Of a stretch of DNA of 32,083 bases, positions 8,822 through 27,813 are shown in pieces. The translations under genes and the position numbers were made by a program. Where the stretch lies: positions 1 through 32,083 of IMG/VR virus record IMGVR_UViG_3300020202_000179, one strand, 5' to 3'. Source of the stretch: a virus. The notes beneath the pieces were generated by a model. The model did no database searches. It saw nothing but the letters and a program-made list of their open reading frames with translations, and was not told where the DNA came from. The first letter of the stretch is position 1; every line of letters begins with the position of its first letter.

Positions 8822-9427
8822 TCACTCCTTGAGATAGTATCCGTCCAGATCCGAGTGTAGACCGCAGATATTCTGTGAGTAGCGCTCGACCACGTTGGCC
8901 CCGCGCTCGTCGAACACAACTACCACCAGGCCCTCACGCGCCAAGGCGTCCGCTTCGCTGACCGAGTGATGATCAGATCGGAAAGCCTTCAGGTGTCCAA
9001 CGAGTCTGCGCTCATCGAGATATCCGTAGACGGCGAGGGTGCAGGTGCTCGGAGTCGAGTCTCCTCGCCACGGCGCTTCACCTTCCAAGTAGACTTCCCA
9101 GCCGTTTTCCTGCGACCTGATCCGCATCAGGCCTTTTGGGTCGGAGCGGCGATAGACGCCCGTGGGGTTGAAAGGCAGGCCGCTGAGTTCCGCGGGCAAC
9201 AGTCCCTTGACGGGATCGTTCACATGCGGCGGCGCAGGGAGCGGCCCAGATCTCTGGCTCGATGCGGGACCAGCGGGCGCCGCGGGCGGATGCTCCAGCG
9301 CTCGGGCGCTGCGCTCCTCCGCTGCGTCCCGGCCGGCTTCCCTGGTTGCGGCTGGCTGACCACAGCTGACTACCGTGACCGCCAACGCAGCGAAGACCAG
9401 CCGATGACGTACGACCCTGCGAAGCAT
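8822..9427 (-). CDS. Putative lipoprotein, family shared with 10233-10829 (copy A)
   Basis: A 201-residue protein. The ATG at 9427 has GGAG nine bases upstream; a GTG at 9442 is an alternative. The signal peptide ends VVSC (Cys22). A Pro/Ala/Glu-rich spacer (about 25-65) leads to a C-terminal domain of about 130 residues beginning PPHVNDPVKGL and ending NICGLHSDLDGYY. That domain is strongly similar to the second lipoprotein in the window. No known family is recognised. It carries two Cys (in PSTCT and NICGL) that could form a disulfide, fitting a periplasmic fold. It sits downstream of a lysozyme-like pseudogene. Immunity against that enzyme type is an inference. Confidence 0.78.
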   Translation of the reverse strand: MLRRVVRHRLVFAALAVTVVSCGQPAATREAGRDAAEERSARALEHPPAAPAGPASSQRSGPLPAPPHVNDPVKGLLPAELSGLPFNPTGVYRRSDPKGLMRIRSQENGWEVYLEGEAPWRGDSTPSTCTLAVYGYLDERRLVGHLKAFRSDHHSVSEADALAREGLVVVVFDERGANVVERYSQNICGLHSDLDGYYLKE

Positions 9428-9504
9428 GTCGATGGTCTCCACCTCTACCCCGGAAGCCTAACTCATGTTCGCCGTTTGTTCCATAGAACGACTCGCCTGA
9501 TTTG

Positions 9505-10070
9505 TCAGTATCGCGGAGGTGCGACTTTGGGATCACGTCCCAAGGGCAGTAGCCGAAGGGCTTCTGCTTCTTCGCGGGCGTACCTGGCGGCCGTTCGAGG
9601 GAAACGGCGGGCCCGTTCAGCGTAGACTTCCCGCACGAGGGCTTCCTCAAAGCGAGGGTCGGCCCGTAGGGCACTCGCCTCGCCGCCGCCGCGATGTTGT
9701 CCGTGTCCGGCCCGTGCTGCACGGCGGTCGACCAGACGACGTCGCGCATGGCTTGGGAGCTTCCCGGCAGGTCGGGCCCCCCGAGGTCCCGCATTCGCGT
9801 CAGCTGCGCATCGAAATGTGCGGCGGATGTAGTCTCGCTGCGCGCGTTCGAAACCGTGGGGATCAACCGCAGCGGCCTGCCTCCAAGCCGCATCGAATGC
9901 GGGAGTCCCCGGCTCCATGCCGTGGAACCGCGGCGCCCAGGCCGCTCCCTCGCGCTGCAAGAACTCCTGCGGCCGCCGTCTTCGGGTGGCGAGTTGCCAG
10001 CTCCCATACGACACGCCTCCAGGGTCCCTTTGGCCACGCCCCAGCCAGCCGGTCGAAACCGTACCGGGCC
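9505..10070 (-). pseudogene. Decayed copy of the GGVSYGSWQLAT lysozyme-like gene
   Basis: Minus-strand similarity to the intact protein at 10884-11711 begins near its residue 84, with GGVSYGSWQLAT kept at about 10017. It runs in one frame to IRRT (about 9817), then continues in the next frame with QAMRDVVWSTAVQHG, and returns to the first frame near 9670-9690 with VYAERARRFP. Two compensating indels therefore scramble about 45 residues. The N-terminal 83 residues, including the acidic SEEAAE segment that may be catalytic, are missing because the 5' end is fused to the antisense of a WG-gene fragment. The open frame upstream to 10236 is an artefact of that fusion. Confidence 0.8.
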
Positions 10071-10086
10071 CGCCATGGGGGCCCAC

Positions 10087-10215
10087 TCGAAGGACTACGC
10101 CTTCAACCGCCCCGTCCCCATGGCCGCCGTCGCCGGAGCCGCCGAAATCGGCCGCATCGACAGGAGCGGTAAGGTTCTGGGTGGGGTCACGGGCGTCCCT
10201 TGTCCGGATCAGTAG
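10087..10215 (+). pseudogene. 3' fragment of the WG-repeat lipoprotein gene
   Basis: Forward-frame translation matches the last 40 or so residues of the WG-repeat protein (DYAFNRPVPMAAVAGA... to VTGVPCPDQ and a stop), with several substitutions. No start or repeats precede it; upstream sequence belongs to the antisense lysozyme-like pseudogene. It marks the left edge of the second duplicated unit. Confidence 0.85.
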
Positions 10216-10232
10216 GTGCGACGGTCGCTCGC

Positions 10233-10829
10233 TCACTCTCTGCGGTAGTATCCGTCCAGGTTTGAATGGAGGCCGCAGATGTTCTGACCGTAGCGGTCAA
10301 CGACGTTGGCTCCGCGCTCATCGAAAACGACGACTGTGAGGCCGTCGGTTTCGCCTAGAGCTTCATAACTTACCTCGTGATGATCGGATCGGAATTCCGT
10401 GAGATATCCAACCAGTCGTCTATCATCGAGGTAGCCGTAGACGAGAACTGTGCAGGTCGAAGGCGTGGCGTCTCCTCGATATTCCGCCTCACCTTCCAGA
10501 TAGACCTGCCATCCGGTCGACTTCGATCTGATCCGCATCATCCCCTTGGGACGAGCGCGGCGATAGATTCCTGAAGGATCGAACGGCAGCCGGCGGCGTT
10601 CGGCGGGCGACAATCCTTTCACCGGGTCGTTGACGTGGGGTGGTTCGGGAGGAGGCCGGAAGTTCGGGTCAGCAGCCGGAAGCGGGGGAACCTTGGACGG
10701 CGTGACTGCAGGGGCCAGCCCCTCGCGACCCTCCACGACCGTCGGCCTGGGTCTCGTCTTCGGCGGGGCAGGTTCACCGCAGGCGGCGACCACGGCGGCC
10801 AAGGCGACACTGATGCTAATCATACGCAT
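10233..10829 (-). CDS. Putative lipoprotein, family shared with 8822-9427 (copy B)
   Basis: A 198-residue protein. The start is set at MRMISISVAL, where a signal peptide begins that ends VVAAC (Cys17). A Pro-rich spacer (about 20-70) precedes the conserved domain: PPHVNDPVKGL, then MMRIRS, VYLEGEA-x-x-RGD, STCT, VYGYLD-x-RRLVG, FRSDHH and FDERGANVV, to a C-terminal NICGLHSNLDGYY. Both Cys of copy A are conserved. No family is recognised. It lies 54 bases after the intact lysozyme-like gene on the same strand and is probably co-expressed with it. The placement suggests a periplasmic partner or inhibitor; this is inference. Confidence 0.8.
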   Translation of the reverse strand: MRMISISVALAAVVAACGEPAPPKTRPRPTVVEGREGLAPAVTPSKVPPLPAADPNFRPPPEPPHVNDPVKGLSPAERRRLPFDPSGIYRRARPKGMMRIRSKSTGWQVYLEGEAEYRGDATPSTCTVLVYGYLDDRRLVGYLTEFRSDHHEVSYEALGETDGLTVVVFDERGANVVDRYGQNICGLHSNLDGYYRRE

Positions 10830-10883
10830 GGAAGCTTCCGCGCCTAGGGGATGTGCGATTTGTTCATACTTTGTTCCCACGCG

Positions 10884-11711
10884 TCAATAGGGATGCCTCT
10901 TGAAATCATCCGGCTTGCGGTCGGTGCTCGGCGTCAAGGCTCGCAACGCCGCCAGGCGCTCACGATCGAACCTTGGCGCAGTGGTCGGAAACTGGCGAGC
11001 CCGTTCCTCGTAGATCTTGTTGATCAGCGCCGCTCTGTAGCCAGGCGTCCGGGGGTCCATTCCCAACGCCTGATAGGCGTCACTGATCACATCGGTATTC
11101 CGGCCATGCTGGACAGCCGTCGACCAGACGACGTCCCGCATCGCGGGCCCCATGGCGGCGAAGTCCTGACCAGTCTTCCCTCGTAGACGGCGAAGCTGCA
11201 CCTCGTAGTCGGTCCGTCGGATGAACGCGCGTTGTGCGCGCTCGAAAGCCTCCGGCGTCTCTGTCGCCACGAGGCGCCACACCGCGCTGAATTCCGGGCT
11301 TCCGGGCGTCAGGCCGTTGAACCGGTTCGCCCAAGGGCGACCTTCGTTGAGGAGGAACTCCGCGGGTCGCCCCCAGTTGGTGGCCAGTTGCCAACTTCCG
11401 TAGGAAACGCCGCCCCGGTCCGGTCCGGCGTTCGTTCGACCGCTGGACACGGCCCAGGGACCTTCGGCTGCTTCCTCCGACCGGGACAGGCGCCCGAGCA
11501 GTTCGGCCTTGTCCTGCCAGTTCAGAGCGGGCGGCTTTTGCGGTCTCGGTCGGGGGCCACCGGGGTGACCGGGCTGCGGGCGTGGCGAAGGTCCCATGAG
11601 GGTGGGCGGCATCGGGGGCAGAGGAGTGGCGTTCACCGCGTTTTCGTCGAGATACAGCAGTCCCCTGCGACGCTTGTTCAGTTGCGAAGGTGCAAACCGG
11701 TTCTTGGGCAT
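10884..11711 (-). CDS. Lysozyme-like (GGVSYGSWQLAT-type) protein, candidate virion-borne hydrolase
   Basis: A 275-residue protein with AAGGAGA seven bases before the ATG. Residues 1-27 are basic and may be a sorting tail. Residues 28-62 are a Pro/Gly linker. From about 65 onward a domain reads LGRLSRSEEAAEGPWAVSSGR, then GGVSYGSWQLAT (100-111), with a C-terminal VWSTAVQHG block. I recall similar G-D-x-GGVSYG-x-x-QL segments in phage and VgrG-linked proteins with a lysozyme/chitosanase-like fold; Glu79, Glu80 or Glu83 would be the catalytic candidates. There is no signal peptide. It lies just downstream of the propeller-like virion protein and upstream of a lipoprotein, unlike the true endolysin at 3661-4038. 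Confidence 0.7.
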   Translation of the reverse strand: MPKNRFAPSQLNKRRRGLLYLDENAVNATPLPPMPPTLMGPSPRPQPGHPGGPRPRPQKPPALNWQDKAELLGRLSRSEEAAEGPWAVSSGRTNAGPDRGGVSYGSWQLATNWGRPAEFLLNEGRPWANRFNGLTPGSPEFSAVWRLVATETPEAFERAQRAFIRRTDYEVQLRRLRGKTGQDFAAMGPAMRDVVWSTAVQHGRNTDVISDAYQALGMDPRTPGYRAALINKIYEERARQFPTTAPRFDRERLAALRALTPSTDRKPDDFKRHPY

Positions 11712-11751
11712 GTCCCGTCTCCTTGCTGGCGGAAGGTTGGTTCGTCGGTCG

Positions 11752-13230
11752 CTACCGCCGCCCCGCCGGCCGCAGGTCCAGGCGCATGACGCCTACCCGG
11801 CTGTCGGCGGCGGCGGTGAAGGCCACGCGCGTTTCCACCTGCCTCGCGGTGAAGCGCGCGTCGGTGGGGGCGTCGGCGATGGCGTAGGGGCCGTGCTCGG
11901 TCTCCGCCGCGTTCGGAAACGCCCGCGCGTAGAAGGTGACCGCCGCCTCACCCTGGGTGCGTTCGTCGCCGATCAGGCCGCCCACGGCCATCACCTGCTC
12001 CCCCGCGCCCAGCTCGAGCGGCGCCGAGCGGGCGTAGGGCTCGGCCCCGTCCCAGTCCCAGCCGACCTCGTGCTCCCACACGCGGCCGTCGGGCGAGACC
12101 AGCAGCGGATGCAGGAAGGCTCCGGCCGAGGTTCCGCAGGTGCGCGCCAGTTCGCCCACCGACCACTTGCCGGTGCGGTAGCTCCAGGCGACGTAGCGGT
12201 CGTTCTCGACCGAGCCCGAGGACGGATAGTGCCACCAGATCTCGCCGTGCTCGGTGTTGTGCCAGGCGGTGATCTTCGAGGCCTGCAGCGCGTTCAGGTC
12301 CTGGAACACGTAATCGCCGACCTCGCACGGCAGGTCCTCGACCGCCCCGCCGTTGAAGACGAAGAAGGCGCCCTTGCCCATCCACACAGCGCGCGCGTCG
12401 AGCGACACGGCCGCGCCCTTCGACGCCACGCCGCAATCGGTCCCCACGCGCTGGAAGCCGTAGACGGCCACCCCGCCCAGGTACTGCGCCGCCCACACGT
12501 CGACGTCCGAGAACACCAGGGTCTGGCCGCGCACCCGGCGGCCGCACACGAGCACGCCGGTGGTCTGCAGGTCCAGGTCGCCGGCCTGGTTGGTGGCCGC
12601 CGGGGTCCAGGTCGTGCTGTCGGCCTGGTCGCACCAGGCCACGTTGCGGTCCCTGAGCGCGAAGATGAAGTTCTCCGCGGTCACCACCAGGCCGCGGCAG
12701 TTCTCCGGCGCGCCGGCGATCGCCGCCGCCGGATCGCCGACGTCCAGGCTCCATTCGTAGAGCTTGCCGTCGCCCTCGCAGCAGCCGAGCAGATGCTGGC
12801 CCCAGGTGTCCAGGGTCCACACCGCGGCCGGGATGATGCTGCCGGCGTCGGGCCGCGGGGTGCCGTAGGCGCCCGCGCCGTAGAGGGCCGCGCCGTAGCC
12901 CGCGCCGGTGTCGGCGTCGTCGGGGCCCGGACTGAAGCCGGCCGGCGTGATGTCGGCCAGGGCGCCCGAGGCGGTCATGGCCCACAGGCCCTGGCTCGAG
13001 CCGATGGCGATCCAGCGACCGGCGTCGTTGTCGCGCCAGGTCAGGATGGCGCGCGCCTTGCCCGCCACCGGGTCCTCGTCCGGCGCCTTCAGGCGCCAGC
13101 CGCCGACCGGCTGCAGGTCGGGGCCGTTGGGCCAGCGCACCAGGTTTGACAGCCGCCAGCGGCCTTTCGCCTGCCTGGCGGTGCCGTTCGCGAACACCCC
13201 CGGCGGGATGTCCAGATCGACGTAGGGCAT
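11752..13230 (-). CDS. Beta-propeller-like virion protein, P22 gp10-type stabilisation/tail hub candidate
   Basis: A 492-residue protein with many short repeats of the form hydrophobic strand-turn-strand (VVTAENFIFALRDRNVAWCD, RYVAWSYRTGKWSVGE, LVSPDGRVWEHEVG). This suggests a beta-propeller like the packaged-DNA stabilisation proteins of P22-type phages (gp10, about 470 residues). Length, placement before the fibre genes and co-occurrence with P22-like coat and portal support that. I cannot show direct sequence identity with gp10. It starts one base after the stop of the fibre gene at 13232, so it is tightly coupled. It would sit below the portal and hold the tail spikes. Confidence 0.62.
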   Translation of the reverse strand: MPYVDLDIPPGVFANGTARQAKGRWRLSNLVRWPNGPDLQPVGGWRLKAPDEDPVAGKARAILTWRDNDAGRWIAIGSSQGLWAMTASGALADITPAGFSPGPDDADTGAGYGAALYGAGAYGTPRPDAGSIIPAAVWTLDTWGQHLLGCCEGDGKLYEWSLDVGDPAAAIAGAPENCRGLVVTAENFIFALRDRNVAWCDQADSTTWTPAATNQAGDLDLQTTGVLVCGRRVRGQTLVFSDVDVWAAQYLGGVAVYGFQRVGTDCGVASKGAAVSLDARAVWMGKGAFFVFNGGAVEDLPCEVGDYVFQDLNALQASKITAWHNTEHGEIWWHYPSSGSVENDRYVAWSYRTGKWSVGELARTCGTSAGAFLHPLLVSPDGRVWEHEVGWDWDGAEPYARSAPLELGAGEQVMAVGGLIGDERTQGEAAVTFYARAFPNAAETEHGPYAIADAPTDARFTARQVETRVAFTAAADSRVGVMRLDLRPAGRR

Positions 13231-13231
13231 C

Positions 13232-14221: not shown

Positions 14222-14229
14222 GGCGGTTC

Positions 14230-15921: not shown

Positions 15922-16845
15922 GTGAAAATGTTTCAGAAGGTCGCCGGCATCCGGCGCTATGCATTTGTTCCGGTCGAGCAATGTGAGATGTGCGGGTCAG
16001 CCGCCCACCGCGTTCTCGGACTTCGACTCAACCGCTCCCAAGGCCTCAACCCGGCCGGTCGAACTGGGATCGCCGTCGGCGTGAAGCGCTGTCGAGACTG
16101 CGGCCTGACCTTCGCCGATCCACGCCCCATTCCGGGGGCCATCGAGGACCACTACGGCGTCCCGCCTGAGGGCTATTGGTCGCCGAAGCGGTTCGAACCC
16201 GACCCGTCGTATTTTCAGCGCGAGATCGCCGAGGCGAAGCGCTTACTGCCGTTCCAAGAAGGGATGTCAGCCCTCGACATTGGAGCCGGCTTCGGGAAGG
16301 CAATGACGGCACTTTCGGCGGCCGGATTCGATACTTGGGGCCTCGAACCGTCGGAGCCATTTCGTGACCGCGCCATAGAGAAGATGGGTATTCCAGCCGA
16401 CCGGCTGGCCCTTTCGACCGTGGAGGCGTTCAATCCCGTAGTCGGGTTTGACTTCATCACCTTCGGCGCGGTGCTCGAGCACCTTCAGGAACCCGCAAGG
16501 GCACTCGAGCGCGCGATGGCGTGGTTGAAGCCTGGCGGGATCATTCAAGCCGAAGTCCCGTCTTCAGACTGGCTCGTGTCTAAGCTGGTCAACGGCTTCT
16601 TCCGACTTCGAGGGACGAATTACGTCACCAACCTCTCTCCGATGCACTCGCCCTTTCATCTCTACGAGTTTGGCCTGAAGTCATTTCAAGCTCACGCGGC
16701 GAAGGCGGGGTACGAGATCGCCCATCATCACTACATGGTCTGCTCGATCCCCCATGTTCCCAAGCCCCTGAAACCCCTCCTGCGAGAGGTCATGGCGCGC
16801 ACGAACACAGGTATGCAGTTGGTCGTGTACCTCAAGCGATCTTAG
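15922..16845 (+). CDS. Class I SAM-dependent methyltransferase with N-terminal zinc-ribbon, surface-glycan type
   Basis: A 307-residue protein starting at GTG 15922 (ATG 15928 is an alternative). A Cys cluster near the N-terminus (CEMCG at about 20, CRDCG at about 57) looks like a zinc site. SAM motif I is LDIGAGFGK (about 114-122), followed by GLEPSE (acidic motif II) and FITFGAVLEHLQEPARAL, which is typical of Methyltransf_11/23 enzymes. Proteins of this kind are common in LPS or capsule loci and methylate sugars. It is inserted between tailspike and lectin-like gene on the opposite strand, overlaps the latter by 14 bases at its 3' end, and has lower G+C. Methylating the receptor glycan to block superinfection is plausible but inferred. 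Confidence 0.85.
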   Translation: MKMFQKVAGIRRYAFVPVEQCEMCGSAAHRVLGLRLNRSQGLNPAGRTGIAVGVKRCRDCGLTFADPRPIPGAIEDHYGVPPEGYWSPKRFEPDPSYFQREIAEAKRLLPFQEGMSALDIGAGFGKAMTALSAAGFDTWGLEPSEPFRDRAIEKMGIPADRLALSTVEAFNPVVGFDFITFGAVLEHLQEPARALERAMAWLKPGGIIQAEVPSSDWLVSKLVNGFFRLRGTNYVTNLSPMHSPFHLYEFGLKSFQAHAAKAGYEIAHHHYMVCSIPHVPKPLKPLLREVMARTNTGMQLVVYLKRS

Positions 16846-18234: not shown

Positions 18235-18858
18235 TCAGCCTTCGACGATTCCGAAACGACGCTCGAGGGCGAGCTCGGTCCGCAGGGGCGCCTCTCGGCT
18301 GATCGCCTCGCGCCGGTTGACGGCCCCGACGGCGGCCTCGTAGCGCGCCTGCCAGCGCACGGCCTGGTCCTCGTCCGCCGCCCAAAGGGCGGCCTCCACG
18401 AGGGCGGCCGCGAGGTAGGCGTCCGGATGGTTGGCCAGCAACCAGTTCTCCGGCTCCGCCTCCGAAAGCTCGAAAGCCGCCAGGTAACGCAGCACGAAGT
18501 CGGTCGCCGCCGCGCAGGGCCGCTCGAAGGCCACCGCGTCGGCGTCCAGCGTCCAGTATTCGGGCGTTCCCGCGGCGGTCGAAACCGCCAGGGTCGAGAG
18601 CACGCGCCTGAGGGGCGCGCGACCCTCCGCTCCCGAGCGCCAGAGCGCGATTGGCGCCAGGAAGCCTGCCGGCAGCGGCAGACGGACGTCGCCGGCCGCC
18701 GCCGCCAGGGCGGCTTCGGCCTCCATCACCCGCAGCCTGAGGTCCCGGTTCAGCCGCGCCTCGCCCAGGCGCACCAGGTCGGCCGCCGGCAGGTCGGTGC
18801 GATTGAAGCTCCAGGCGCCGACCGCAGCCTTCAGGTCTTCGTAGTTGGCAAGCGCCAT
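18235..18858 (-). CDS. Head-tail adaptor protein (SU10/P22 gp4-like)
   Basis: A 207-residue mostly helical protein. The opening MALANYEDLKAAVGAW...LVRLGEARLNRDLRLRVME matches the N-terminal helix pair of the podovirus adaptor family, where L-A-E-x-R-L-N-R-x-L-R is a hallmark. A middle beta segment (LPLPAGFLAPIALW) and a helical end follow. It should form the ring below the portal. The order coat then adaptor agrees with this. No catalytic motif is seen. Confidence 0.82.
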   Translation of the reverse strand: MALANYEDLKAAVGAWSFNRTDLPAADLVRLGEARLNRDLRLRVMEAEAALAAAAGDVRLPLPAGFLAPIALWRSGAEGRAPLRRVLSTLAVSTAAGTPEYWTLDADAVAFERPCAAATDFVLRYLAAFELSEAEPENWLLANHPDAYLAAALVEAALWAADEDQAVRWQARYEAAVGAVNRREAISREAPLRTELALERRFGIVEG

Positions 18859-19431: not shown

Positions 19432-20610
19432 CTAGTTCGCCGCCAGGCGGCAGGCGAGCTGCGGACGCAGGGTCTTGAACCCGTAGAGCACGTCGATGCG
19501 GCACGGGAACTTGTCGTTGTTGATGTCGTACTGGCGCACAACCCGCATCGAGATGCCGTCGTAGACCTCGCGCGCGCCCCAATCGACGCCGCGCGGCATC
19601 AGCAGGTCCGCGGTTGCGAAGGTGAAGGCGTCCTCGTGGAACAGCAGCGACTGGCCGTAGTTCGTGCTCGCCGTTCCCGCGACGCTGACCGCGGCGTTGT
19701 CCGCGGGCGAGCCCGCGACGTTCTGGGTCGCGCCCGAGGTGACGATCGCCGGGCTGATGGGGATGGACCCTGAGCCGCCGGCGTAGTCGGCGGTGACCAC
19801 GAACTGCTGCAGCACGCCGGTGGACACCTTGGTTTCCGGGTGCACCGAGAACACGCCGGCGATGGTGATCACCTCGCCCGCGGTGATGGCGCCCGTGCCG
19901 CCGTCCACGGTCAGCGAGGCGCCGGTCTGGCTGGCGCCGTTGACCAGGTAGGCGCCGTTGGCGGCGCCGCGGCTCTGGGCGGTCAGGTGGGTGTTCTCGA
20001 AGAAGTCGAAGCCGGCGGTCCGCCCCATGGCCCCCTCGCGGTACTGGCGCGAGATGCCGTCGGTGTCGTTGAACAGCCCCTTCAGCGCGTCGACCAGGTC
20101 GGCGTTGTCGGTGGTGTTGAGCAGCGCCGAACGGGCGCCCGGCGGGCACAGGCTGTCCTCGAGCTTCTTGCGGCCGGCCAGCAGCTTGGCGAAGGTCAGG
20201 GCCTGGCCCTGGTTGTCGACCTGCTGCCAGACGTCCTTGCGCATGGTCAGGGCGTCGGCCTCGATGGCCGCGGCCAGCACGCCGATGGCGGGCTCCAGCA
20301 CCCGCTGCGAGAAGTCATCCAGGCCGAGCGACAGCTCCGCGGAGCTGAAGTTCATGTCGACGCCCTTCTGGGTCGCCACCTGGAGGGTGGTCGAGCTCTC
20401 GGTGGTGTCCTGAGCCGACATGGTGGCTCCGGTGCGCACCGTGTACTGGTTGGGCAGCCGCACCTTCAGGGTGTCGCCGATCTTGGCGCCCGAACGGGCG
20501 AAGCTGTCGTCGTACTGCCGGTTGATGTTGCCGATGAAGTTGCACTTCTGGTGCAGGATGCGGAGCGCTTCGCGCGTCACCGCCGTGGGGGAAAGGATGG
20601 AGTTCGCCAT
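19432..20610 (-). CDS. Major capsid protein, P22 coat (gp5)-like
   Basis: A 392-residue protein. The start MANSILSPTAVTREALRILHQKCNFIGNINRQYDDSF is characteristic of the P22-type coat family (normal length 390-430). It also shows KIGDTLKVRLPNQY, KGVDMNFSSAELSL, a PGARSALLNTTDNADLV segment and the C-terminal CRIDVLYGFKTLRPQLACRL. It forms the HK97-fold icosahedral shell. The start is adjacent to the scaffold stop (20611), so coat and scaffold are co-translated. A variable Gly/Ala-rich insert lies at about 230-315, in the part that corresponds to the surface-exposed I-domain region. Confidence 0.93.
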   Translation of the reverse strand: MANSILSPTAVTREALRILHQKCNFIGNINRQYDDSFARSGAKIGDTLKVRLPNQYTVRTGATMSAQDTTESSTTLQVATQKGVDMNFSSAELSLGLDDFSQRVLEPAIGVLAAAIEADALTMRKDVWQQVDNQGQALTFAKLLAGRKKLEDSLCPPGARSALLNTTDNADLVDALKGLFNDTDGISRQYREGAMGRTAGFDFFENTHLTAQSRGAANGAYLVNGASQTGASLTVDGGTGAITAGEVITIAGVFSVHPETKVSTGVLQQFVVTADYAGGSGSIPISPAIVTSGATQNVAGSPADNAAVSVAGTASTNYGQSLLFHEDAFTFATADLLMPRGVDWGAREVYDGISMRVVRQYDINNDKFPCRIDVLYGFKTLRPQLACRLAAN

Positions 20611-21300
20611 CTAGCCTCGTGCCTTCTTTCTGAGTTGGGATTGACGGGCCTGCATCCAGGCCTTCGTGGACTGTCGATCGGAGGGGGCGGCGCCGCCCCA
20701 GCCTCCGCCGCCGAGCTGGACGGGGGGGCGGAAGCGGCCGAAGGCGCGCGCGGCCATGGCCTGCTCGCCCAGCATCGCGAGGTGCAGCACCTTGACCTCG
20801 CGGGGATCTTCGACGCCGGCCAGCTCCTCGTCCGTGAAGCCCTTGGCGCGGCCGAAGCGGGCGAGTTCGGCCGCCATCTGCGGCGACCATCCCTCGATGT
20901 CGCGCGCCAGCTCGGCCTCGGCCGCGGCCAGGCGGGCGGTCCGGTCCGAGTCGCTCTCCGCGTCGCCCGGGAAGGCGCCCTCGGCGCGGACCGCGGCCAG
21001 CGCCTCGTAGGCCTCCCAGGCCTGGGCGGCCGCGGCGGGATCGCTCGCCGCCCACGTCTCCCAGTCGACCTGGGCGAAGCGGGCCAGCTCCGCGTCAAGC
21101 TGGGCTGTCTCGTGATCGTCCGGCGGCACGAACCGGACGGGCTCGTAATCCTCGAGCGCCTCGGGCGCCTCCCAGAGGCGCCCGTCCAGCTCGATCTCCG
21201 GCATCGGGTTGGCCGAGTCGACGGCGGATGGGCGCGCGGGCTCGCCCGCGCCGGGCGCAGGACCGGGCGCGGCGCCGACCCCGAAGGTCGCGTCGTGCAT
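20611..21300 (-). CDS. Capsid scaffolding protein
   Basis: A 229-residue protein immediately before the coat gene. It has an acidic, Glu/Asp/Ala-rich helical body and a basic C-terminus (STKAWMQARQSQLRKKARG), the arrangement by which scaffolding proteins of P22-like phages bind coat subunits. The central section contains GWSPQMAAELARFGRAKGFTDEELAGVEDPREVKVLHLAML, a helical motif common to this class. It directs procapsid assembly and leaves before or during DNA packaging. The call rests on position, composition and tail. Confidence 0.78.
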   Translation of the reverse strand: MHDATFGVGAAPGPAPGAGEPARPSAVDSANPMPEIELDGRLWEAPEALEDYEPVRFVPPDDHETAQLDAELARFAQVDWETWAASDPAAAAQAWEAYEALAAVRAEGAFPGDAESDSDRTARLAAAEAELARDIEGWSPQMAAELARFGRAKGFTDEELAGVEDPREVKVLHLAMLGEQAMAARAFGRFRPPVQLGGGGWGGAAPSDRQSTKAWMQARQSQLRKKARG

Positions 21301-21392: not shown

Positions 21393-21538
21393 GAGGACGT
21401 CCTCTCCGAAGCCTTCGGCGACGGAGGTGGGGCGAGGAGCCGGGCAGCTGAGGGGTAGCCAGACTCCTCGCCCCTCTCCTGCCCGAGGGCCGGAGAACGG
21501 CTAAGGTATGGAACCCGAGGGCCTCAAACCAGCCCTCG
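21393..21538 (-). promoter_or_regulatory. Dyad-rich leader before the scaffold gene
   Basis: The 240 bases before the scaffold start hold several inverted repeats: a perfect 12-base palindrome at 21393-21404, CCGAAG/CTTCGG at 21406-21418, an 11-base-pair stem (21429-21439 with 21464-21474) and a 7-base-pair stem at 21516-21538. In the leftward transcript these would fold into consecutive hairpins. They could be an attenuator or mRNA-stabilising leader. There is no T-run terminator and no gene. Confidence 0.4.
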
Positions 21539-21540
21539 CC

Positions 21541-21591
21541 GGTTCGTCGACCAGGCCATAATCGCACCCTGATCCGGCCTGCCCCGTCAAG
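21541..21591 (-). repeat. Dispersed 51-base intergenic repeat, copy 1
   Basis: Shares the core GCACCCTGATCCGGCCTG and the frame ATCGACC/GTCGACC...GTCAAG with copies at 22227-22277 and 28420-28470. Read leftward, copies 2 and 3 begin CTTGACACGCC and this one begins CTTGACGGGG. All are outside confident genes and in the same orientation. Possible promoter, processing site or host repeat. Confidence 0.7.
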
Positions 21592-21804: not shown

Positions 21805-21854
21805 TCAGCCTCGATCAAGACAGTGAACAGAGCGGCCTTGACCAGCAGACCAAC

Positions 21855-22076: not shown

Positions 22077-22226
22077 CGCGCGGAGTTGAGACGCGGGGGT
22101 AACGAAGTGCGTCCTGGAAAACGGGTCGGGTAGGGCATGGGATTTCCTCGGCCGCGGTCGCCAGGGCGGACGATGCGGTTCCAGCTCGGCTGCGATTGTG
22201 GGAGGGCGGCCGAACCGGCGCCCGCC

Positions 22227-22277
22227 GGTTCATCGACCAGGCATTAATGGCGCCCTGATCCGGCCTGGCGTGTCAAG
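22227..22277 (-). repeat. Dispersed 51-base intergenic repeat, copy 2
   Basis: Aligns without gaps to copy 1 over 51 bases, including GGTTC-TCGACCAGGC and CCTGATCCGGCCTG. It lies about 45 bases before the stress-type promoter of the copper-storage-type gene and, read leftward, precedes the small membrane frames. Confidence 0.7.
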
Positions 22278-22320: not shown

Positions 22321-22345
22321 GGAACCTACCCGCGGGCCCCCGGTT
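22321..22345 (+). promoter_or_regulatory. EcfG-like promoter for the Cys-rich protein
   Basis: GGAAC, 16 bases, GGTT; one mismatch from the GGAAC-N16-CGTT general stress consensus. It lies about 30 bases before the ATG at 22377. Confidence 0.5.
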
Positions 22346-22376
22346 GACGGTCGTCCTTCAACCCATGGAGCCCGCC

Positions 22377-22790: not shown

Positions 22791-22817
22791 CACGCCAGTT
22801 CGGCCAGGACCTTCCGC

Positions 22818-22848
22818 CCGTGCGACGCCGTCCGCCTGCGTCGCACGG
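22818..22848 (+). terminator. Hairpin after the copper-storage gene
   Basis: An 11-base-pair perfect stem (CCGTGCGACGC with GCGTCGCACGG) with a nine-base loop, 28 bases after the stop codon. There is no T tract, so it may be a weak terminator or an mRNA 3' protector. Confidence 0.5.
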
Positions 22849-22951
22849 CGCACGGGTTGCAGCCGCGAAAACAACCCTGCATGCGGATTTCTGAGCTGGG
22901 CGTGTGTCGGCAAGCCTTGCAACCTCGTCGCGGCTCGTAAATCATCGTGCG

Positions 22952-23206
22952 GTGACATCGCGCCCGCCCGTCTTCGACCGCTACCTCGACCGCCTGGTGG
23001 CGGCGCGGGCCAGCCTCATCCTGAAGAAGCCGGCGCTCGGCGACTGGCTGTGCCAGTTCCGCTTCCGCGAGGGCCTCAGGGTCGAGACCCTGGCCCGGGC
23101 CGGCGCCTTCATCGAGTACAACCGCGACTGGGTCCGCTCGGCCTCGCCCAAGGATCTCGCAGCCCGCCTCGAGACGATGGCTTCCCGCGCCCACGCGCGG
23201 CGGTAA
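22952..23206 (+). CDS. Hypothetical small protein
   Basis: About 84 residues from a GTG at 22952; an ATG at 22904 would give 100 residues with a poorly structured head. The body is helical and basic (FDRYLDRLVAARASLILKKPALGDWLCQFRFREGLRVETL), and a C-terminal helix ends in Arg. No family is recognised. It follows the copper-storage gene on the same strand and is probably host-derived like it. Confidence 0.55.
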   Translation: MTSRPPVFDRYLDRLVAARASLILKKPALGDWLCQFRFREGLRVETLARAGAFIEYNRDWVRSASPKDLAARLETMASRAHARR

Positions 23207-23354
23207 CGCCTTCCTACGCGCGCTGGATCGGGTTGAACGCGCGGGCTTGGCCGGCAGGTCGCCGATCACCCGCGGGGCCGCGGTAGCTTCAGCTCCGGGG
23301 ATCGACCTGACGGCCAGGCCGTCGTCCTCCCGACGCCACAAGCCCCAGCCTCGA

Positions 23355-23585
23355 CTAGGCCGTCGGCCGGCCTTTGCCTGGACGTTTACGACGTCTCCCC
23401 TCCAGCACGCCGTCGGCGATACAGATGGCGCCCAGCGCAACCGAGACCCCGTCCGTCCACCTTGGCGAACCGAGAGACACGCTGATGAAGGCCCCGGCCA
23501 GGCAGTAGGCTCCGACGAGCCAGTAGTTCCACAGCCAAGTCCCGTCTGGCGGCTGTTGATCGGCCGCCGTGCGGAATCCGAACAA
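23355..23585 (-). CDS. Small two-helix membrane protein
   Basis: A leftward 76-residue frame read from a TTG at 23585; no ATG or GTG is near and the start is uncertain. Two hydrophobic helices (YWLVGAYCLAGAFISVSLG and VSVALGAICIADGVL) are followed by a basic tail (EGRRRKRPGKG). It resembles the small membrane frames at 21646-22076. The frame upstream joins the recombination scar, so the gene may have lost its original 5' end. Confidence 0.5.
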   Translation of the reverse strand: MFGFRTAADQQPPDGTWLWNYWLVGAYCLAGAFISVSLGSPRWTDGVSVALGAICIADGVLEGRRRKRPGKGRPTA

Positions 23586-23619
23586 CCTGCCCAGAAAGAC
23601 TAGCGCTAGCTGCCCGCCC

Positions 23620-23737
23620 CTAACGCTCCGAACGCCGCGTCGTGCCGGCCCGCGTCTTGGCGCCAGCGGCGATGAGCAGGGCGCGCGCGTCCTGCGTGCC
23701 GGCAGCCTCCACGAGAGGCCATTCGCCGACGGGTCGG
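23620..23737 (-). pseudogene. 3' fragment of an ankyrin-repeat protein gene
   Basis: The leftward frame ends with PVGEWPLVEAAGTQDARALLIAAGAKTRAGTTRRSER and a stop. The x-PL-x-x-AA...ALL-x-AGA pattern is one ankyrin repeat, like the ankyrin lipoprotein at 26075. No start or signal peptide is attached; upstream sequence is the duplicated portal end. Confidence 0.6.
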
Positions 23738-23752
23738 GCGCCAACGGGTCGG

Positions 23753-23895
23753 GGTGGCGGCGAGGCGTTGGGTTTGGCGGAAGGCCTCGATCTCGAGGCG
23801 GCGGCTGTCGAGCTGCAGGCGGGCGAGGTCGAGCTGGCGGGTCGAGGCCTGGGCCTGCAGCGCCTGCTGCAGCTGGGCTCCGGGCTGCTGGATCC
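23753..23895 (-). repeat. Duplicated fragment of the portal gene 3' end
   Basis: Closely matches portal bases 24044-24197, with a few substitutions and two in-phase gaps (3 and 9 bases). It lies about 290 bases away in the same orientation. It encodes no usable portal tail here. It links the start of one gene fragment to the end of an ankyrin fragment, marking illegitimate or homologous recombination. Confidence 0.88.
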
Positions 23896-23901
23896 ATGAC
23901 G

Positions 23902-24006
23902 AGTTCGGCGTCCGGGTTCGGGTACTGTCGTTCGTAAGCGTCCTGAAGGTCGCCCGCCCTCTCTGGTCCCACCATGATCCGAGCCCGGCTGGAACGGGTT
24001 TGGCAT
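23902..24006 (-). pseudogene. 5' remnant of a gene following the portal (MPNPFQPG...)
   Basis: An ATG at 24006 with AGGAGGAG six bases upstream, 22 bases after the portal stop, encodes MPNPFQPGSDHGG. The next plausible protein, AGDLQDAYERQYPNPDAELVMD, is in another frame, and then the portal repeat begins. MPNPF-x-PG is also the start of the GH104-like protein at 26920. This looks like the head of a similar gene, frameshifted and cut. Confidence 0.6.
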
Positions 24007-24028
24007 CTTCTCCTCCTGAATGGTCCGA

Positions 24029-25927
24029 TCAGCCGCGGCCGCCGGTGGCGGCGAGGCGGTGGGTCTGGGCGGCGAAGGCCTCGATCTCGAGGCGGCGGCT
24101 GTCGAGCTGCAGGCGGGCGAGATCGAGCTGGCGGGTCGAGGCCTGCGCCTGCAGCGCCTGTTGGGCCTGCTGCAGCTGGGCCCCCAGCTGCTGGATCTGC
24201 TGCTGCGCCGCCATCAGCTGCGGGTTCTGGCCCGCCGCGCCGGGCGGGAGCAGGCCGCGCAGCCGTTGGGCGATCTCGGCCGCGCCAGGCCAATCGAGGT
24301 TCTTGGCCAGCAGGTCGCCGATCACCGGCGCGGCCTGGGGGAAAACGCGAACGAACTCGATCATCTGTTCGGCCGCTTCCTGCCGCCGCGTGGTGAACGA
24401 CGGCCCGGCCTCGACGGTCAGGTCGTACTTGCCCAGGCCCAGGTCGTAGATCCGCTTCACCGGCGAGGCGGGCGGCTGGCCGGGGGCGGCCGGCTGCGGC
24501 TGGTTCACCGCCACCACCTGCGGCATCCCCTCCGGCCCCAGCACGCGCAGCACCCGCGGCTCGGAATAGACCTTGGGGATCAGGTCGATGAGGATGCGCC
24601 CGGCGTGGCGGATCGCGCGGCTCAGGTTGTCGATGTAGTGGAAGGTCGAGACGTCGCCCTCCCGCTGCCGCGCCGTGATCGCCCGGCCCGAGGTCTCGTT
24701 CGACGGCGCCCCCAGCGAGGCGTCGTGCAGGCCCATGATCGCCTTCATGTCGTCGCTGGCGTTCAGCGCCTCCTGCAGGGCGCCGGCGGGCGGGCCGTCG
24801 AACGGCTGGCGCTGCGGCGGCTGGGGTCCGTCGTACTCGATGAAGGCGTGAGTCTCGACGTTGGCGGTCGACCACTTCTCGACGTCGCTGTCGAAGGCGC
24901 CCTTGGGCCCGATGAACGGCGCCTTGGGCGACAGCGCCACCAGCTCGGTCGAGACCGTGCGCCAGTAGTTGAACATGCGCTGCGGGTCCTTGGCGTCGCG
25001 CACCAGCGAGCGGAAGTGCCGCTTGCCTTCGACCATCACCTCCTCGCCGAACACCGGCACGATCGGGATGAAGCGGCCGGGCCAGTCGGTCTCGTCGAGG
25101 AGCTCGGCCCCGGTGAGCAGCCGCTGGCGGACGCGCATCGTCGTCGTCGGGCGGTCGGCGACGACGGTCAGGCCCAGCGCGTCGAACTGGTCCTTGCGCG
25201 CCTTGTAGGTCGCCAGGTCCACGGCCTGCCCGTCGGAGAGGCCCAGCAGCCGCGAGGGGACGGCCTCGCGCGTCCACCATTCGGCCACCAGCACCCGGTC
25301 GCCGTCCAGCCACGGCCCGCCGACGCCGTGGTAGGCGTTCCGCCAGTCGACCGCCTGGGCGCCCTTGAAGCGCTTCTCGAACACCGTCTTGGGCATGGCC
25401 TCGACCACGAAGGCCGAGTTCCAGTCGGCGCTGTCGGCGGCGGTGGAATACGGGTCGGCGTAGACCGTGAAGGGGTCGGCCACGCGGCGGATGCGGATGT
25501 CCTGCTCGAAGCCCTCGTCGCCGGCGTACTCGAGCCCGATGCGGAAGTAGCCCAGGCCCCCGGTGACCGCGCTCTCCAGGGCCGTGTCGTAGGCGACGTC
25601 GGCGTCGGACGCATACTCGATGTTGCGGATCAGGCCGCTCATGATCTGGGCGGTCATCGGGTCGGCCAGGCTGTCGGCCGGATGCACGGTGATCGAGGGC
25701 CGGTTCTGGCGCCCGTCGTTGACCACCTGGCGGATGAAGGCCGGCAGCCGGTTGATGGTCAGGCACGGCCGCCCGTCGCGGCGGCGCTTGTCGGCCATGT
25801 CGGCCGGCCACTGCTCGCCGAGCCGGGCGAAACGGATATCGTCCAGCGCCTCGGCCCGGTTCTCGGCCTCGGCGTCGAGGCACAGCTGGAACGCCTCGCG
25901 GGCGTCCTGAAGGATGTCTCTGGTCAT
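24029..25927 (-). CDS. Portal protein, P22 gp1-like
   Basis: About 632 residues. The start MTRDILQDAREAFQL at 25927 has GGAG seven bases upstream; an earlier ATG 11 codons before is less likely. P22-type portal features are RFARLGEQWPADM...RPCLTINRLPAFIRQVVNDGRQNRPSI, ESAVTGGLGYFRI, DPFTVYADPYS, RMFNYWRTVSTELVALSPKAPFIGPKGAF and ETSGRAITARQREGD...YIDNLSRAIR. A Gln-rich C-terminal barrel-like tail starts at about 560. It forms the dodecameric DNA entry ring. In other phages terminase genes precede it; here an ankyrin lipoprotein does. Confidence 0.93.
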   Translation of the reverse strand: MTRDILQDAREAFQLCLDAEAENRAEALDDIRFARLGEQWPADMADKRRRDGRPCLTINRLPAFIRQVVNDGRQNRPSITVHPADSLADPMTAQIMSGLIRNIEYASDADVAYDTALESAVTGGLGYFRIGLEYAGDEGFEQDIRIRRVADPFTVYADPYSTAADSADWNSAFVVEAMPKTVFEKRFKGAQAVDWRNAYHGVGGPWLDGDRVLVAEWWTREAVPSRLLGLSDGQAVDLATYKARKDQFDALGLTVVADRPTTTMRVRQRLLTGAELLDETDWPGRFIPIVPVFGEEVMVEGKRHFRSLVRDAKDPQRMFNYWRTVSTELVALSPKAPFIGPKGAFDSDVEKWSTANVETHAFIEYDGPQPPQRQPFDGPPAGALQEALNASDDMKAIMGLHDASLGAPSNETSGRAITARQREGDVSTFHYIDNLSRAIRHAGRILIDLIPKVYSEPRVLRVLGPEGMPQVVAVNQPQPAAPGQPPASPVKRIYDLGLGKYDLTVEAGPSFTTRRQEAAEQMIEFVRVFPQAAPVIGDLLAKNLDWPGAAEIAQRLRGLLPPGAAGQNPQLMAAQQQIQQLGAQLQQAQQALQAQASTRQLDLARLQLDSRRLEIEAFAAQTHRLAATGGRG

Positions 25928-25950
25928 GGAATCTCCATTGAAAATGACGC

Positions 25951-25994
25951 AGCCGCCCACGCCCCGGGCTGGAGGGTTCCGGGAGCGGGCGGCT
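25951..25994 (-). terminator. Hairpin between the ankyrin gene and the portal gene
   Basis: AGCCGCCC (25951-25958) pairs with GGGCGGCT (25987-25994) around an inner G+C-rich dyad. Read leftward it is followed within a few bases by TTTT. It follows the ankyrin stop by about 80 bases and precedes the portal ribosome site. It could end a separate lysozyme-ankyrin unit. Confidence 0.45.
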
Positions 25995-26074
25995 ACAAGC
26001 CGGAGACCGGCCGTTTCGTGGTGATTGAAGCTATTGCCGTCGGCGCAAGCGGACGGCGGCTCAGACGTTCGCCA

Positions 26075-26878
26075 TCAGGACCGGCCCCTCCGCGGATGCT
26101 TGGCCCTGGACGAAATGAGTCGCCTCATTTCGTCCGAAGCCGCCGCCTCGTATGCGTTCTCCCACGGGCGGCAGCCCTTCTCGAACTTGGGCCAGGCACA
26201 TTCGCGGATGTTCGGATCGGCGCCGGCGTCCAGGAGGACCCGGGCCGCAGCCAGGGAATTCTCCCGGCTGGCCCAGGTCAGGGCGGTGCTGTCGCTGACG
26301 AACCCGCCGCTGTGCTCGCTTGTCGTTCGGAGATCGACCTCGGCGCCGGCGGCGAGCAGCGCCTCGACGGCCTCTGGTTGGTCGCAGATCGCCGCCCGGA
26401 CCAAAGGAGACATGAGGAGGCCAGATACGATCTTGATATTGGGGTCAGCGCCCTTCTCGATCAGCCTGCGGATACCCGGAACGTCGCCACGTTCCGCTGC
26501 AACATAAAGTTCGATCGATATCCGCTGGCGCTTCAGCCAAGCCCTTTCATCTGCAGTTGCAGCGGGGGGATCGGGTGCTCCGGCGTGCACCTCCGCAAGG
26601 GCCCAGCTCCAATCGCGACGACGCAGGGCCTCGGAGAGGTGAGTCACGCCCCCGGCTCGGGGGCGGCCGCCGCATCCATCCTCTCGCCACAGAGCGACGG
26701 ATCGAATGGCTCGGACAGGCTTCTCGCTTGCTTTGGCAGGCGCTGGTGCGGGCGAACTTAGGGGCCTGGCCGGCGGCTTCTGCGGCGCCCTTTCACACCC
26801 CTCCAGCCCCGCGAGAACGGCGGCGAGACCGACCGCCGTGACCGCGATGATTGTTAGGGGCATCCGCACGGTCGCCAT
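26075..26878 (-). CDS. Ankyrin-repeat lipoprotein, immunity candidate
   Basis: A 267-residue protein from ATG 26878; GTG 26896 and ATG 26863 are alternatives with no clear ribosome site for any. A signal peptide is followed by LEGC (Cys28), an imperfect lipobox. A Pro/Ala spacer and a short helical region lead to about three ankyrin repeats (about 140-260): ELYVAAERGDVPGIRRLIEKGADPN, SPLVRAAICDQPEAVEALLAAGAEVD and TALTWASRENSLAAARVLLDAGADPN. It should be a periplasmic-facing binding protein. It starts about 40 bases after a lysozyme-like gene, the arrangement expected of a toxin and its immunity protein; that role is inferred. Confidence 0.82.
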   Translation of the reverse strand: MATVRMPLTIIAVTAVGLAAVLAGLEGCERAPQKPPARPLSSPAPAPAKASEKPVRAIRSVALWREDGCGGRPRAGGVTHLSEALRRRDWSWALAEVHAGAPDPPAATADERAWLKRQRISIELYVAAERGDVPGIRRLIEKGADPNIKIVSGLLMSPLVRAAICDQPEAVEALLAAGAEVDLRTTSEHSGGFVSDSTALTWASRENSLAAARVLLDAGADPNIRECAWPKFEKGCRPWENAYEAAASDEMRRLISSRAKHPRRGRS

Positions 26879-26919
26879 AGAACGTAATAAGAACACAAGG
26901 CATAGGCAGCTGCAACTCC

Positions 26920-27813
26920 CTAGCGCCGTCGCAAGCGGTCTCGATAGTATTCCAGGCGTTCGTCGTATCTGTCTTGAACCTGTTGCGGCGTGACCCTGGC
27001 GTGGACCCCACCCGGCAAGCTCGTCCAGGTCCGGTTCGCTCGCGCGGTTGCGAGGTCCGGTCTGTCACGTCGAACTGCGTCGAGAATGTCTTTCACGATC
27101 AAGGTTCGGGTGGCCATCGCGTCTTGGGTAAGCGGCGACATGTCCGTGAGACCAAGGTCCCCGACGCGATCTGTATTGAGATCGGCCCCGATCTGATAAC
27201 GACCCGACATGCTAGAGGGGCCCCCTGCCCAATTCGCTCCGCGCTGTCCCGGGTGCCGCGAAAAATCGGAGAAGGTCCGTTGTCCGGCCCGATTGTCGCC
27301 GAAGAGCGAGTTGTAGCGGGCGGCCTCCGACATCGCGAGGACGTCGAGCCAAGCGAGCGTTCGAGGATCACGCCACACTTGGCGAACCTCCTGAACCGCC
27401 CGCCGCTGCGCTGGCGGCAGTGGCGCCACTTTCTCCCGTAGCCAGGTCTCCCGCGCCACCTGTTCCGGCGACTGCCGACGACGACGGCGCGGGTCGTAGG
27501 TCAGCGTCGCGAGGTTGTCGCTGACCATGTAGTTCTCGGGGTTCATGGCGCCCTGGAAATCACCCACCTTCAGGCTGGGAGCGAACCGAAGCCTGCCCTC
27601 GGCCATCAGCGTCCGGACCCGCTCGCGGTCGGCGCGGGTCGGCGGGGTGCTGCGCGGAAAGCTCCTGGCGTATTCGTCCGGGCGGGCGCGAGCCGCAGAA
27701 CTGCCGGCCGCCCGCAAGCGCGCCGCCTCTCTGTCATAGGCGACGCGCGCCCACGGATGCGCGCGTTCGTAGCGATGCCAGAGCGGCGTGCCGGGCAGGA
27801 AAGGATTGGGCAT
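26920..27813 (-). CDS. Phage-borne lambda-R-like (GH104) lysozyme-domain protein
   Basis: A 297-residue protein with AGGGAG before the ATG. Residues 1-155 are a basic N-terminal region with no known domain, starting MPNPFLPGTPLW. Residues 156-270 match the lambda endolysin R family in order: LDVLAMSEAARYN with Glu163 at the catalytic position, FSDFSRHP (181-188), SSMSGRYQI (200-208), LGLTDMSPLTQD (220-231) and TWTSLPGG (262-269). Such enzymes cleave glycan strands as lytic transglycosylases. The long extension, lack of signal peptide and distance from the lysis cassette argue against a simple endolysin. It could be a virion-associated hydrolase or an effector. An ankyrin lipoprotein gene follows. 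Confidence 0.85.
   Translation of the reverse strand: MPNPFLPGTPLWHRYERAHPWARVAYDREAARLRAAGSSAARARPDEYARSFPRSTPPTRADRERVRTLMAEGRLRFAPSLKVGDFQGAMNPENYMVSDNLATLTYDPRRRRRQSPEQVARETWLREKVAPLPPAQRRAVQEVRQVWRDPRTLAWLDVLAMSEAARYNSLFGDNRAGQRTFSDFSRHPGQRGANWAGGPSSMSGRYQIGADLNTDRVGDLGLTDMSPLTQDAMATRTLIVKDILDAVRRDRPDLATARANRTWTSLPGGVHARVTPQQVQDRYDERLEYYRDRLRRR

Follow-up and report, generated by a model that had tools for sequence, protein, structure and literature searches.

Why would a phage that already encodes an endolysin carry further peptidoglycan hydrolases, each with a lipoprotein gene directly behind it? The question is raised by the virus record IMGVR_UViG_3300020202_000179, whose whole 32,083 bases (GC content 0.69; hereafter the window) contain the remains of a P22-like podoviral prophage with its phage genes on the minus strand. 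An initial annotation had read two hydrolase-lipoprotein gene pairs in the window as phage-borne effector-immunity modules. The open frames that it named are all present where it had placed them, and its reading has divided between the two pairs. For a VgrG3-C-type muramidase and its lipoprotein it gains support, because the enzyme belongs to a family of type VI secretion system (T6SS) effectors, related lipoproteins stand beside homologous hydrolases, and an LprI gene can substitute for the partner. For a GH104-like hydrolase and its ankyrin-repeat neighbor, neither a homologous pair nor a relic was found. With a probability of roughly 0.6, the first pair is a muramidase with a specific, periplasm-facing inhibitor that the phage acquired and that would spare carrier cells much as Spackle does in T4. 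The enzyme family, the homology among the lipoproteins, the recurrent pairing and the late-gene position of the pair are computed results. The two genes are as follows.

10884-11711, minus strand: VgrG3-C-type muramidase, 275 residues (PF21277, E 4.3e-36)
10233-10829, minus strand: lipoprotein A, 198 residues from its ATG (the open reading frame extends to 10880), of a family here called VLI, our name for an otherwise unnamed lipoprotein family

Profile searches of both hydrolases and their partners, proposed with the initial annotation, assigned the PF21277, GH104-like and ankyrin families and left lipoprotein A unmatched in Pfam. The protein at 10884-11711 does carry the GGVSYGSWQLAT motif by which it had been called a hydrolase. 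Its N-terminus of about 70 residues, proline-rich and without a signal peptide as judged by eye, is followed by a single T6SS_VgrG3-like_C domain (PF21277), which scores 125 bits against a curated cut-off of 27. The nearest solved structures by sequence are those of Vibrio cholerae VgrG3 (4NOO, E 5e-24; 4NSO, E 1e-23), the second titled as an effector-immunity complex, and the same entries head the Foldseek matches (E 7e-7 and 1.4e-6) of an AlphaFold2 model with a mean pLDDT (predicted local distance difference test) of 75, poor at the N-terminus and in a loop near residues 90-107. All 30 aligned PF21277 domains share E79 and D98, which are presumably the catalytic residues. There is no VgrG fusion on the muramidase, which holds PF21277 only, and the scan of window proteins turned up no T6SS gene; Pfam gave no match to LysM repeats in the muramidase either, and such repeats can occur on chromosomal relatives (L097). 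A common N-terminal tag of the two hydrolases (MPKNRFAP, MPNPFLPG) was considered, and the motif, present in none of the loci examined, was left as chance.

The lipoprotein A gene starts 54 nt behind the muramidase stop on the same strand. The partner gene products do look like signal-peptide lipoproteins, as had been claimed, with lipoboxes VAAC-G, VVSC-G and LEGC-E judged by eye. Lipoprotein A has no match in Pfam or NCBIfam (best PHROG E 0.36, best PDB E 0.23) and none by BLAST in phage and plasmid collections; viral-contig scans with each single hydrolase or with lipoprotein A returned no relatives, nor did a scan of genome contigs and viral contigs with an alignment of the two window lipoproteins (A1). 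Relatives were reached through a VgrG3-C alignment, after single-protein queries had failed to find any. Many bacterial VgrG3-C relatives have a gene for a lipoprotein or other secreted protein behind them, and the two window lipoproteins align with eight such neighbors in hhalign (probability 98, E 1.8e-13, 113 columns). The modelled VLI domain is a predicted beta-barrel (pLDDT 84), and two cysteines are invariant in the family. Foldseek with this model gave a best E of 0.03 and no clear relative among the matches listed, and the VIA fold search put a D-aminopeptidase domain first (Z 9.1), followed by streptavidin-like and nitrophorin/lipocalin-like barrels. Lysozyme inhibitors of the MliC/ACP type are also described as disulphide-bonded eight-stranded barrels (PMC5507604), a resemblance to VLI that need not reflect kinship. 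The VLI profile matched no immunity entry among PDB sequences at E up to 10, and PF07007 (LprI) matched neither the window lipoproteins (E up to 10) nor the eight rows of alignment A4 (E up to 1). A role as an Rz-like spanin was rejected, the match to phrog_11951 (E 0.36) being too weak. On sequence and neighborhood, we propose that lipoprotein A is the cognate inhibitor of the muramidase, and VLI would be a candidate lysozyme-inhibitor family missing from the Pfam copy used.

How regularly do the two genes occur together in bacteria? A pattern scan of 84,980 genomes for relatives of the enzyme gave 125 matches, of which the best 80 were taken; the best relatives are in Caulobacter, Luteimonas, Lysobacteraceae, Erythrobacter and Brevundimonas. 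A VLI gene lies within 2 kb on the same strand in 27 of these 80 loci, a count that is largely circular because the VLI profiles were built partly from VgrG3-C neighbors (21 of the 27 are profile rows), and an LprI-type gene is present in 5; the LprI profile used for this count was built from four sequences, one of which, L242, is also within the viral count given below. Co-occurrence with the Pfam-defined enzyme and the LprI result are independent in kind from this profile-based adjacency. In 299 Caulobacteraceae genomes, strong VLI matches (E < 1e-19; weaker ones, all 5.5e-7 or worse and mostly covering the profile's signal-peptide end, were dropped) were found in 19, and a VgrG3-C gene above the Pfam cut-off was also found in 19. 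Both are present in 14 genomes, VLI only in 5, the enzyme only in 5 and neither in 275, with a Fisher p of 3e-16 that is too small because the genomes are related and relatedness is uncorrected. One genome counted as enzyme only (G050) has a VLI gene that is absent from the strong matches, and a VgrG3-C match under the Pfam cut-off (G072) is uncounted; none of 14 control genomes was positive in the PF21277 search.

Twelve of the 19 strong VLI genes in Caulobacteraceae adjoin an enzyme gene (2 of these 12 are profile rows), as do all five VLI matches from 247 Lysobacteraceae genomes, at least one of which (G003) is a profile row. The other seven have no enzyme gene within about 1.5 kb on each side; most of those viewed sit among apparent housekeeping genes, and two of the genomes (G269 and G281) carry the enzyme elsewhere. 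Lipoproteins without hydrolases, which the initial annotation had counted against its own reading, thus do occur in part: across both surveys 17 of 24 strong VLI genes adjoin an enzyme and 7 are unlinked. At other loci (L298, L299 and L242) the gene in the partner position belongs instead to PF07007, "lysozyme inhibitor LprI" (E 5e-8 to 7e-22). LprI was earlier proposed as a T6SS immunity protein (PMC12135965, PMC8867033). At L298 (8564-10445) the VgrG3-C gene is followed by two tandem LprI genes, a small inhibitor stack. Some VgrG3-C genes of Brevundimonas and Caulobacter lie near an export-apparatus gene (PF01311, E 3e-44, common to type III secretion systems (T3SS) and flagella) and a DUF1521 gene (E 5e-40); at these side loci with a T3SS-like neighborhood (L102, 5389-6621 and 8160-8816; L098, 7594-8412) the VgrG3-C protein could possibly be an antibacterial or wall-remodelling lysozyme of a T3SS-like cluster.

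The hydrolases could instead be ordinary virion or lysis lysozymes, with the lipoproteins as unrelated passengers. Many large phage proteins have a VgrG3-C domain but no inhibitor partner, GH104 is a standard phage endolysin family, and neither inhibitor type is present at 79 of 85 viral VgrG3-C loci (the best 80 of 109 viral-scan matches plus 5 from a phage collection). The enzyme tree (166 sequences reduced to 148 rows, with L001-L003 as pieces of the window and L212 dropped as identical to L090) tells against such a view, since it places the window enzyme among chromosomal genes, of which many are paired, and apart from the other viral domains. It falls in a 26-row clade (100/93) that otherwise comprises Caulobacter, Luteimonas, Lysobacteraceae and Brevundimonas sequences, and 0 of 67 other viral rows lie within the 61-row group (96/95) around it. 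As VLI genes also adjoin VgrG3-C genes in bacteria and in two prophages besides this one, we consider unrelated passengers improbable. Because the enzyme clade is chromosomal and the other viral rows fall outside the surrounding group, the phage pair most likely came, as far as the tree can tell, from chromosomal stock and not from phage tail lysozymes.

Did the phage then put the pair to use, or is it cargo? The genes between which it lies, and the others by which the prophage is recognized, are these.

24029-25960, minus strand: P22-like portal (phrog_156, E 2e-149; its phage matches include P22-like portals)
20611-21300, minus strand: scaffold
19432-20610, minus strand: major head protein (phrog_283, E 8e-80)
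18235-18858, minus strand: virion protein
11752-13230, minus strand: virion structural protein, encoded immediately upstream of the VgrG3-C pair (phrog_3287, E 5e-71)
5692-7185, minus strand: DNA ejection protein (phrog_4287, E 3e-18)
3661-4038, minus strand: M15-type endolysin (phrog_465, E 2.4e-57; PF13539, E 1e-12)

A tail fibre protein is also encoded on the minus strand, and host-like genes lie at both ends of the window (hemerythrin, 1853-2731; CAP domain, 28541-29884; cupin, 30513-30998). The pair could be host cargo, that is, a bacterial effector-immunity cassette that sits in a cryptic prophage and plays no phage role. None of the window proteins scanned was identified as a terminase, integrase or repressor. 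A search with the terminase of phage CV-1-33 was negative for both the window and G001, which is weak evidence of absence because it missed a different terminase that G001 does have (L293, 11949-13139). The relatives of the enzyme are chromosomal, and the GC content at third codon positions (GC3) is 0.63-0.76 in the pair genes; seven virion genes have values of 0.88-0.96, but another three prophage genes are also low (0.70-0.73).

Several phage loci argue against cargo. The annotation's call for a neighborhood search for the same pairs was answered for VgrG3-C/VLI, which was found in other bacteria and in two further prophages, and not for GH104/ankyrin, which was found in none. In Caulobacter sp. 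17J65-9 (L090) the gene order is that of the window: a phrog_3287 protein, the enzyme, VLI, a small gene that by eye resembles the N-terminus of the 5692-7185 product, and an ejection protein; the portal of that genome, on another contig, is 67% identical to the window portal. A VLI gene stands beside the enzyme in 1 of the 85 viral loci, L212, whose contig is that of L090. A podoviral prophage of another type in G050 (L301; phrog_332 head-tail adaptor, phrog_3437 head, phrog_376 tail and phrog_418 internal virion protein) encodes a 746-residue protein with the same enzyme domain at its C-terminus (E 2e-23). The gene for this protein lies among virion genes, adjoining that for the internal virion protein, and behind it is a lipoprotein gene that scores 35 and 31 bits against the two VLI profiles (E 5e-13 and 1e-11 when searched as a single sequence). 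LprI-type genes occur in 5 of the 85 viral loci; four are near-identical and related to a Stenotrophomonas sequence, and the fifth (L229, on an 87-kb viral contig) follows the gene for a 704-residue enzyme protein by 18 nt, with other neighbors that look, by eye only, like tail and baseplate genes.

Among 21 relatives of the window phage in which both flanks of the slot match, the slot mostly holds no gene or a short frame; the exceptions are a 417-residue frame (L018) and a SUKH gene (L037; 7725-8342, PF09346, E 8e-18, GC3 0.44), which occupies the place of the window's VgrG3-C pair. The SUKH superfamily of immunity proteins is described as the predominant one in polymorphic toxin systems (PMC3482391). 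Given a slot that holds the pair in L090 and a SUKH gene in L037, and a virion-gene setting for the enzyme domain in L301, we regard a pure cargo role as rather doubtful, though well worth keeping in view. That the virion could be the carrier, as had been suggested, is doubtful for the window copy, because no terminase, integrase or repressor was identified.

The initial annotation had also described a decayed second copy of the pair at 8822-10070. The repeat is real (8675-9232 corresponds to 10093-10643, with 73% identity over 562 nt) and its hydrolase is decayed, but its lipoprotein is intact and the repeated unit holds a third gene.

8822-9427, minus strand: lipoprotein B, an intact orphan VLI protein, 58-60% identical to lipoprotein A
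9505-10086, minus strand: decayed second muramidase gene, its N-terminal part gone and its frame shifted
7508-8797, plus strand: WG-repeat lipoprotein (PF14903, E 1.8e-64), convergent with lipoprotein B
10093-10215, plus strand: what is left, at the 3' end, of a second WG-repeat lipoprotein gene (in the same frame as 7508-8797, whose 3' end it matches at 83% over 129 nt)

The VgrG3-C hidden Markov model matches the decayed gene in two frames (positions 15-95 and 87-146). The WG-repeat lipoprotein has 10 matched stretches and a GC3 of 0.93, unlike the VgrG3-C pair genes. Because the repeat extends past the lipoprotein into the 3' end of the WG gene, the repeated unit comprises muramidase, inhibitor and convergent WG lipoprotein, and a single deletion between two units would explain why the first WG gene is mostly gone and the second enzyme lacks its start. 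The domains of lipoproteins A and B differ with a Ka of 0.20 and a Ks of 1.86, silent sites being nearly saturated; since Ks is high and Ka low, this suggests that the two diverged long ago under purifying selection, in part perhaps before they reached the phage.

The intact orphan bears on another possibility, cis-protection, in which the inhibitor neutralizes any muramidase leaking into the periplasm of the producing cell ahead of lysis, and so serves lysis timing and not phage exclusion. In Xanthomonas, XAC2610 is reported to shield the cell that makes it from the cell's own lysozyme-like effector when no secretion system is functional, and VgrG3 is said to reach the periplasm without an obvious signal (PMC10933484); an inhibitor gene directly behind the enzyme gene on one strand would also suit such a role. 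A cell committed to lysis would presumably gain little from it, and lipoprotein B has stayed intact despite its dead enzyme, so that cis-protection seems unlikely as the main purpose. Superinfection exclusion and cis-protection, for which Spackle and XAC2610 would be the respective models, are by analogy both conceivable.

The reading that we favor, a phage-acquired muramidase with its own inhibitor, would run as follows; binding between the two proteins, inhibition, timing and purpose are what we infer. The podoviral prophage would have taken up the pair from the chromosomal stock of Caulobacter and Luteimonas. The signal-less muramidase would reach the periplasm from outside (with a virion or released by lysis) or through leakage, and would act on peptidoglycan from the side of the periplasm, cutting it. 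The envelope-anchored lipoprotein would bind and block the enzyme, so that muramidase from this phage and its relatives would spare cells that carry the prophage, much as Spackle acts on gp5 of T4. The unit of muramidase, inhibitor and convergent WG lipoprotein may have been duplicated or acquired twice, after which a deletion would have ruined the second enzyme and left its inhibitor intact, as expected for an orphan immunity gene. A broader and more speculative extension, which we think unlikely in its full form, is a phage effector-immunity economy in which virion muramidases of T6SS type with linked inhibitors spare carriers and expose others, and prophages stack orphan inhibitors. Lipoprotein B and the SUKH gene of L037 might, with equally little assurance, be such orphans, directed at the entry enzymes of rival phages.

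A number of points weigh against the favored reading. The inhibitor role of VLI is read from sequence and neighborhood, and binding and toxicity are extrapolated from them. The lipoprotein genes lie in the late strand behind the enzyme, which makes their expression in a lysogen uncertain. Beside the 79 viral loci without either inhibitor, neither type is present at 48 of the best 80 bacterial VgrG3-C loci; the adjacency counts carry the circularity described above; and the seven VLI genes without an adjoining hydrolase belong here as well, as does the lack of an identified terminase, integrase or repressor. L090 is only weakly the sister of the window enzyme (90/40), the window branch is long, and the L090 contig is just 6.6 kb. 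The VLI gene of L301 was missed by the profile survey and scores just 31-35 bits. Entries for MliC, PliI and TsiV3 are not among the fold matches listed for VLI, although kinship is not thereby excluded.

Is the GH104/ankyrin pair a second example of the same kind? Three features are concerned.

26920-27813, minus strand: GH104-like hydrolase (lambda R type), 297 residues, with the C-terminal domain at about 150-291
26075-26878, minus strand: ankyrin-repeat lipoprotein, its proposed partner (PF00023, E 4.9e-14; lipobox LEGC by eye)
23753-23894, minus strand: duplicate of the portal 3' end, inside a supposed relic of the pair (88% identical to 24044-24197)

Both gene assignments hold. The hydrolase matches 1AM7 and 3D3D (E 6e-7 to 7e-7 over residues 154-272) and the endolysins of phrog_90 (E 5.9e-15), and the SE motif of lambda R lysozyme is aligned in the 1AM7/3D3D match, with a glutamate that we take to be the catalytic residue. 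The ankyrin gene, with its PF00023 repeats, begins 41 nt behind the hydrolase stop. The pair is real as a layout, and nothing independent links its two genes. The claimed relic with an ankyrin fragment at 23620-24006 had to be given up as a copy of this pair, since it is mainly a duplicated portal end, its sole significant match within the window; it also holds 24 residues similar to those at the start of the GH104 protein (E 0.07) and an ankyrin-like piece, neither of them significant. GH104 matches are present in 1 of 299 Caulobacteraceae genomes and 3 of 337 genomes of the class, with no ankyrin match beside them in the stretch examined, and a pattern scan of viral contigs found no relatives of the hydrolase. 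In favor of a second effector-immunity pair are the adjacency of the genes on one strand, the precedent of an ankyrin-repeat lipoprotein as immunity protein (Tli against the lipase Tle; PMC10294624) and GH104 relatives near secreted-looking genes. On these grounds a second such pair is a tentative idea, to which we give somewhat less than even odds. In one Caulobacteraceae genome (G155; L300, 7803-9482) a distant GH104 relative lies between two genes for small secreted-looking proteins, all of low GC3, and the same genome also holds a VgrG3-C/LprI pair; at L210 the gene behind the GH104 relative also looks secreted.

The claim that the phage already has a full endolysin-Rz-Rz1 cassette stands for the M15 endolysin (phrog_465), and at 3227-3664 there is by eye a spanin-like layout, with no match to a spanin family. 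Among the best 80 relatives from a portal scan, tblastn finds the head protein in 76, the scaffold in 75 and the hydrolases and lipoproteins of the window in none, which says little on the VgrG3-C slot because the gene upstream of that slot is seen in only 29 of them. PADLOC, run on the window, matched only the ankyrin-repeat protein (including one weak match of a nuclease model) and a methyltransferase; this class I methyltransferase gene (15922-16845, plus strand, GC3 0.73) lies between tail genes, and its product matches the model mad2 over the methyltransferase part only (E 4e-10). Three copies of a sequence of about 65 nt, with 77-83% identity, are present (21527-21591, 22213-22277 and 28407-28470), one of them outside the phage genes; this is possibly a dispersed host repeat.

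If the lipoprotein does block the muramidase, a phage lysozyme and its antidote would form one linked unit, joining T6SS effector-immunity pairs to phage superinfection exclusion, and a secreted gene adjoining a virion lysozyme gene could serve as bait for entry-blocking genes. The closest case that we found is gp5 and Spackle of T4. Both there and here the phage would encode a periplasmic inhibitor aimed at a phage lysozyme, inhibition in the window pair being inferred; unlike Spackle, VLI is a predicted beta-barrel lipoprotein whose gene is directly behind the enzyme gene, while the Spackle gene is presumably not linked to T4 gene 5. Spackle is described as an early product and a soluble helical bundle that inhibits gp5 lysozyme in the periplasm (PMC7677548). 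Among the matches listed from open-licence papers, in the portions of text available, no phage-borne lysozyme-inhibitor pair beyond Spackle appears. Another phage-encoded lipoprotein, Ltp of Streptococcus thermophilus phage TP-J34, blocks superinfection (PMC3952083); it is likened here by description alone, and its abstract, unlike our proposal for VLI, does not describe a lysozyme inhibitor.

Among bacterial systems, XAC2609/XAC2610 of the Xanthomonas type IV secretion system (X-T4SS) likewise combines a signal-less lysozyme-like effector with a lipoprotein inhibitor, which acts there in cis-protection (PMC10933484). XAC2609, however, is a GH19 enzyme with an XVIPCD secretion signal, for which the window hydrolases have no match. 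Neither gave a Pfam match to the XVIPCD domain at E up to 10, and we assume that Pfam includes that domain. LprI (PF07007) takes the place of the VgrG3-C partner at the three loci named above, and a LysM/LprI T6SS pair has been predicted in Salmonella Dublin (PMC8867033), whereas the window lipoproteins have no PF07007 match. VgrG3/TsiV3 of V. cholerae (4NOO, 4NSO) shares the enzyme family, by sequence and by fold, and a neighboring gene for an exported partner; it differs in the VgrG fusion and the T6SS context that the window enzyme lacks among the proteins scanned, and a relation in fold between TsiV3 and VLI is compatible with the profile's failure to match any PDB immunity entry. The muramidase of the window and its probable lipoprotein inhibitor resemble the known effector-immunity pairs, with similar pairs in bacteria and in a few other viruses.

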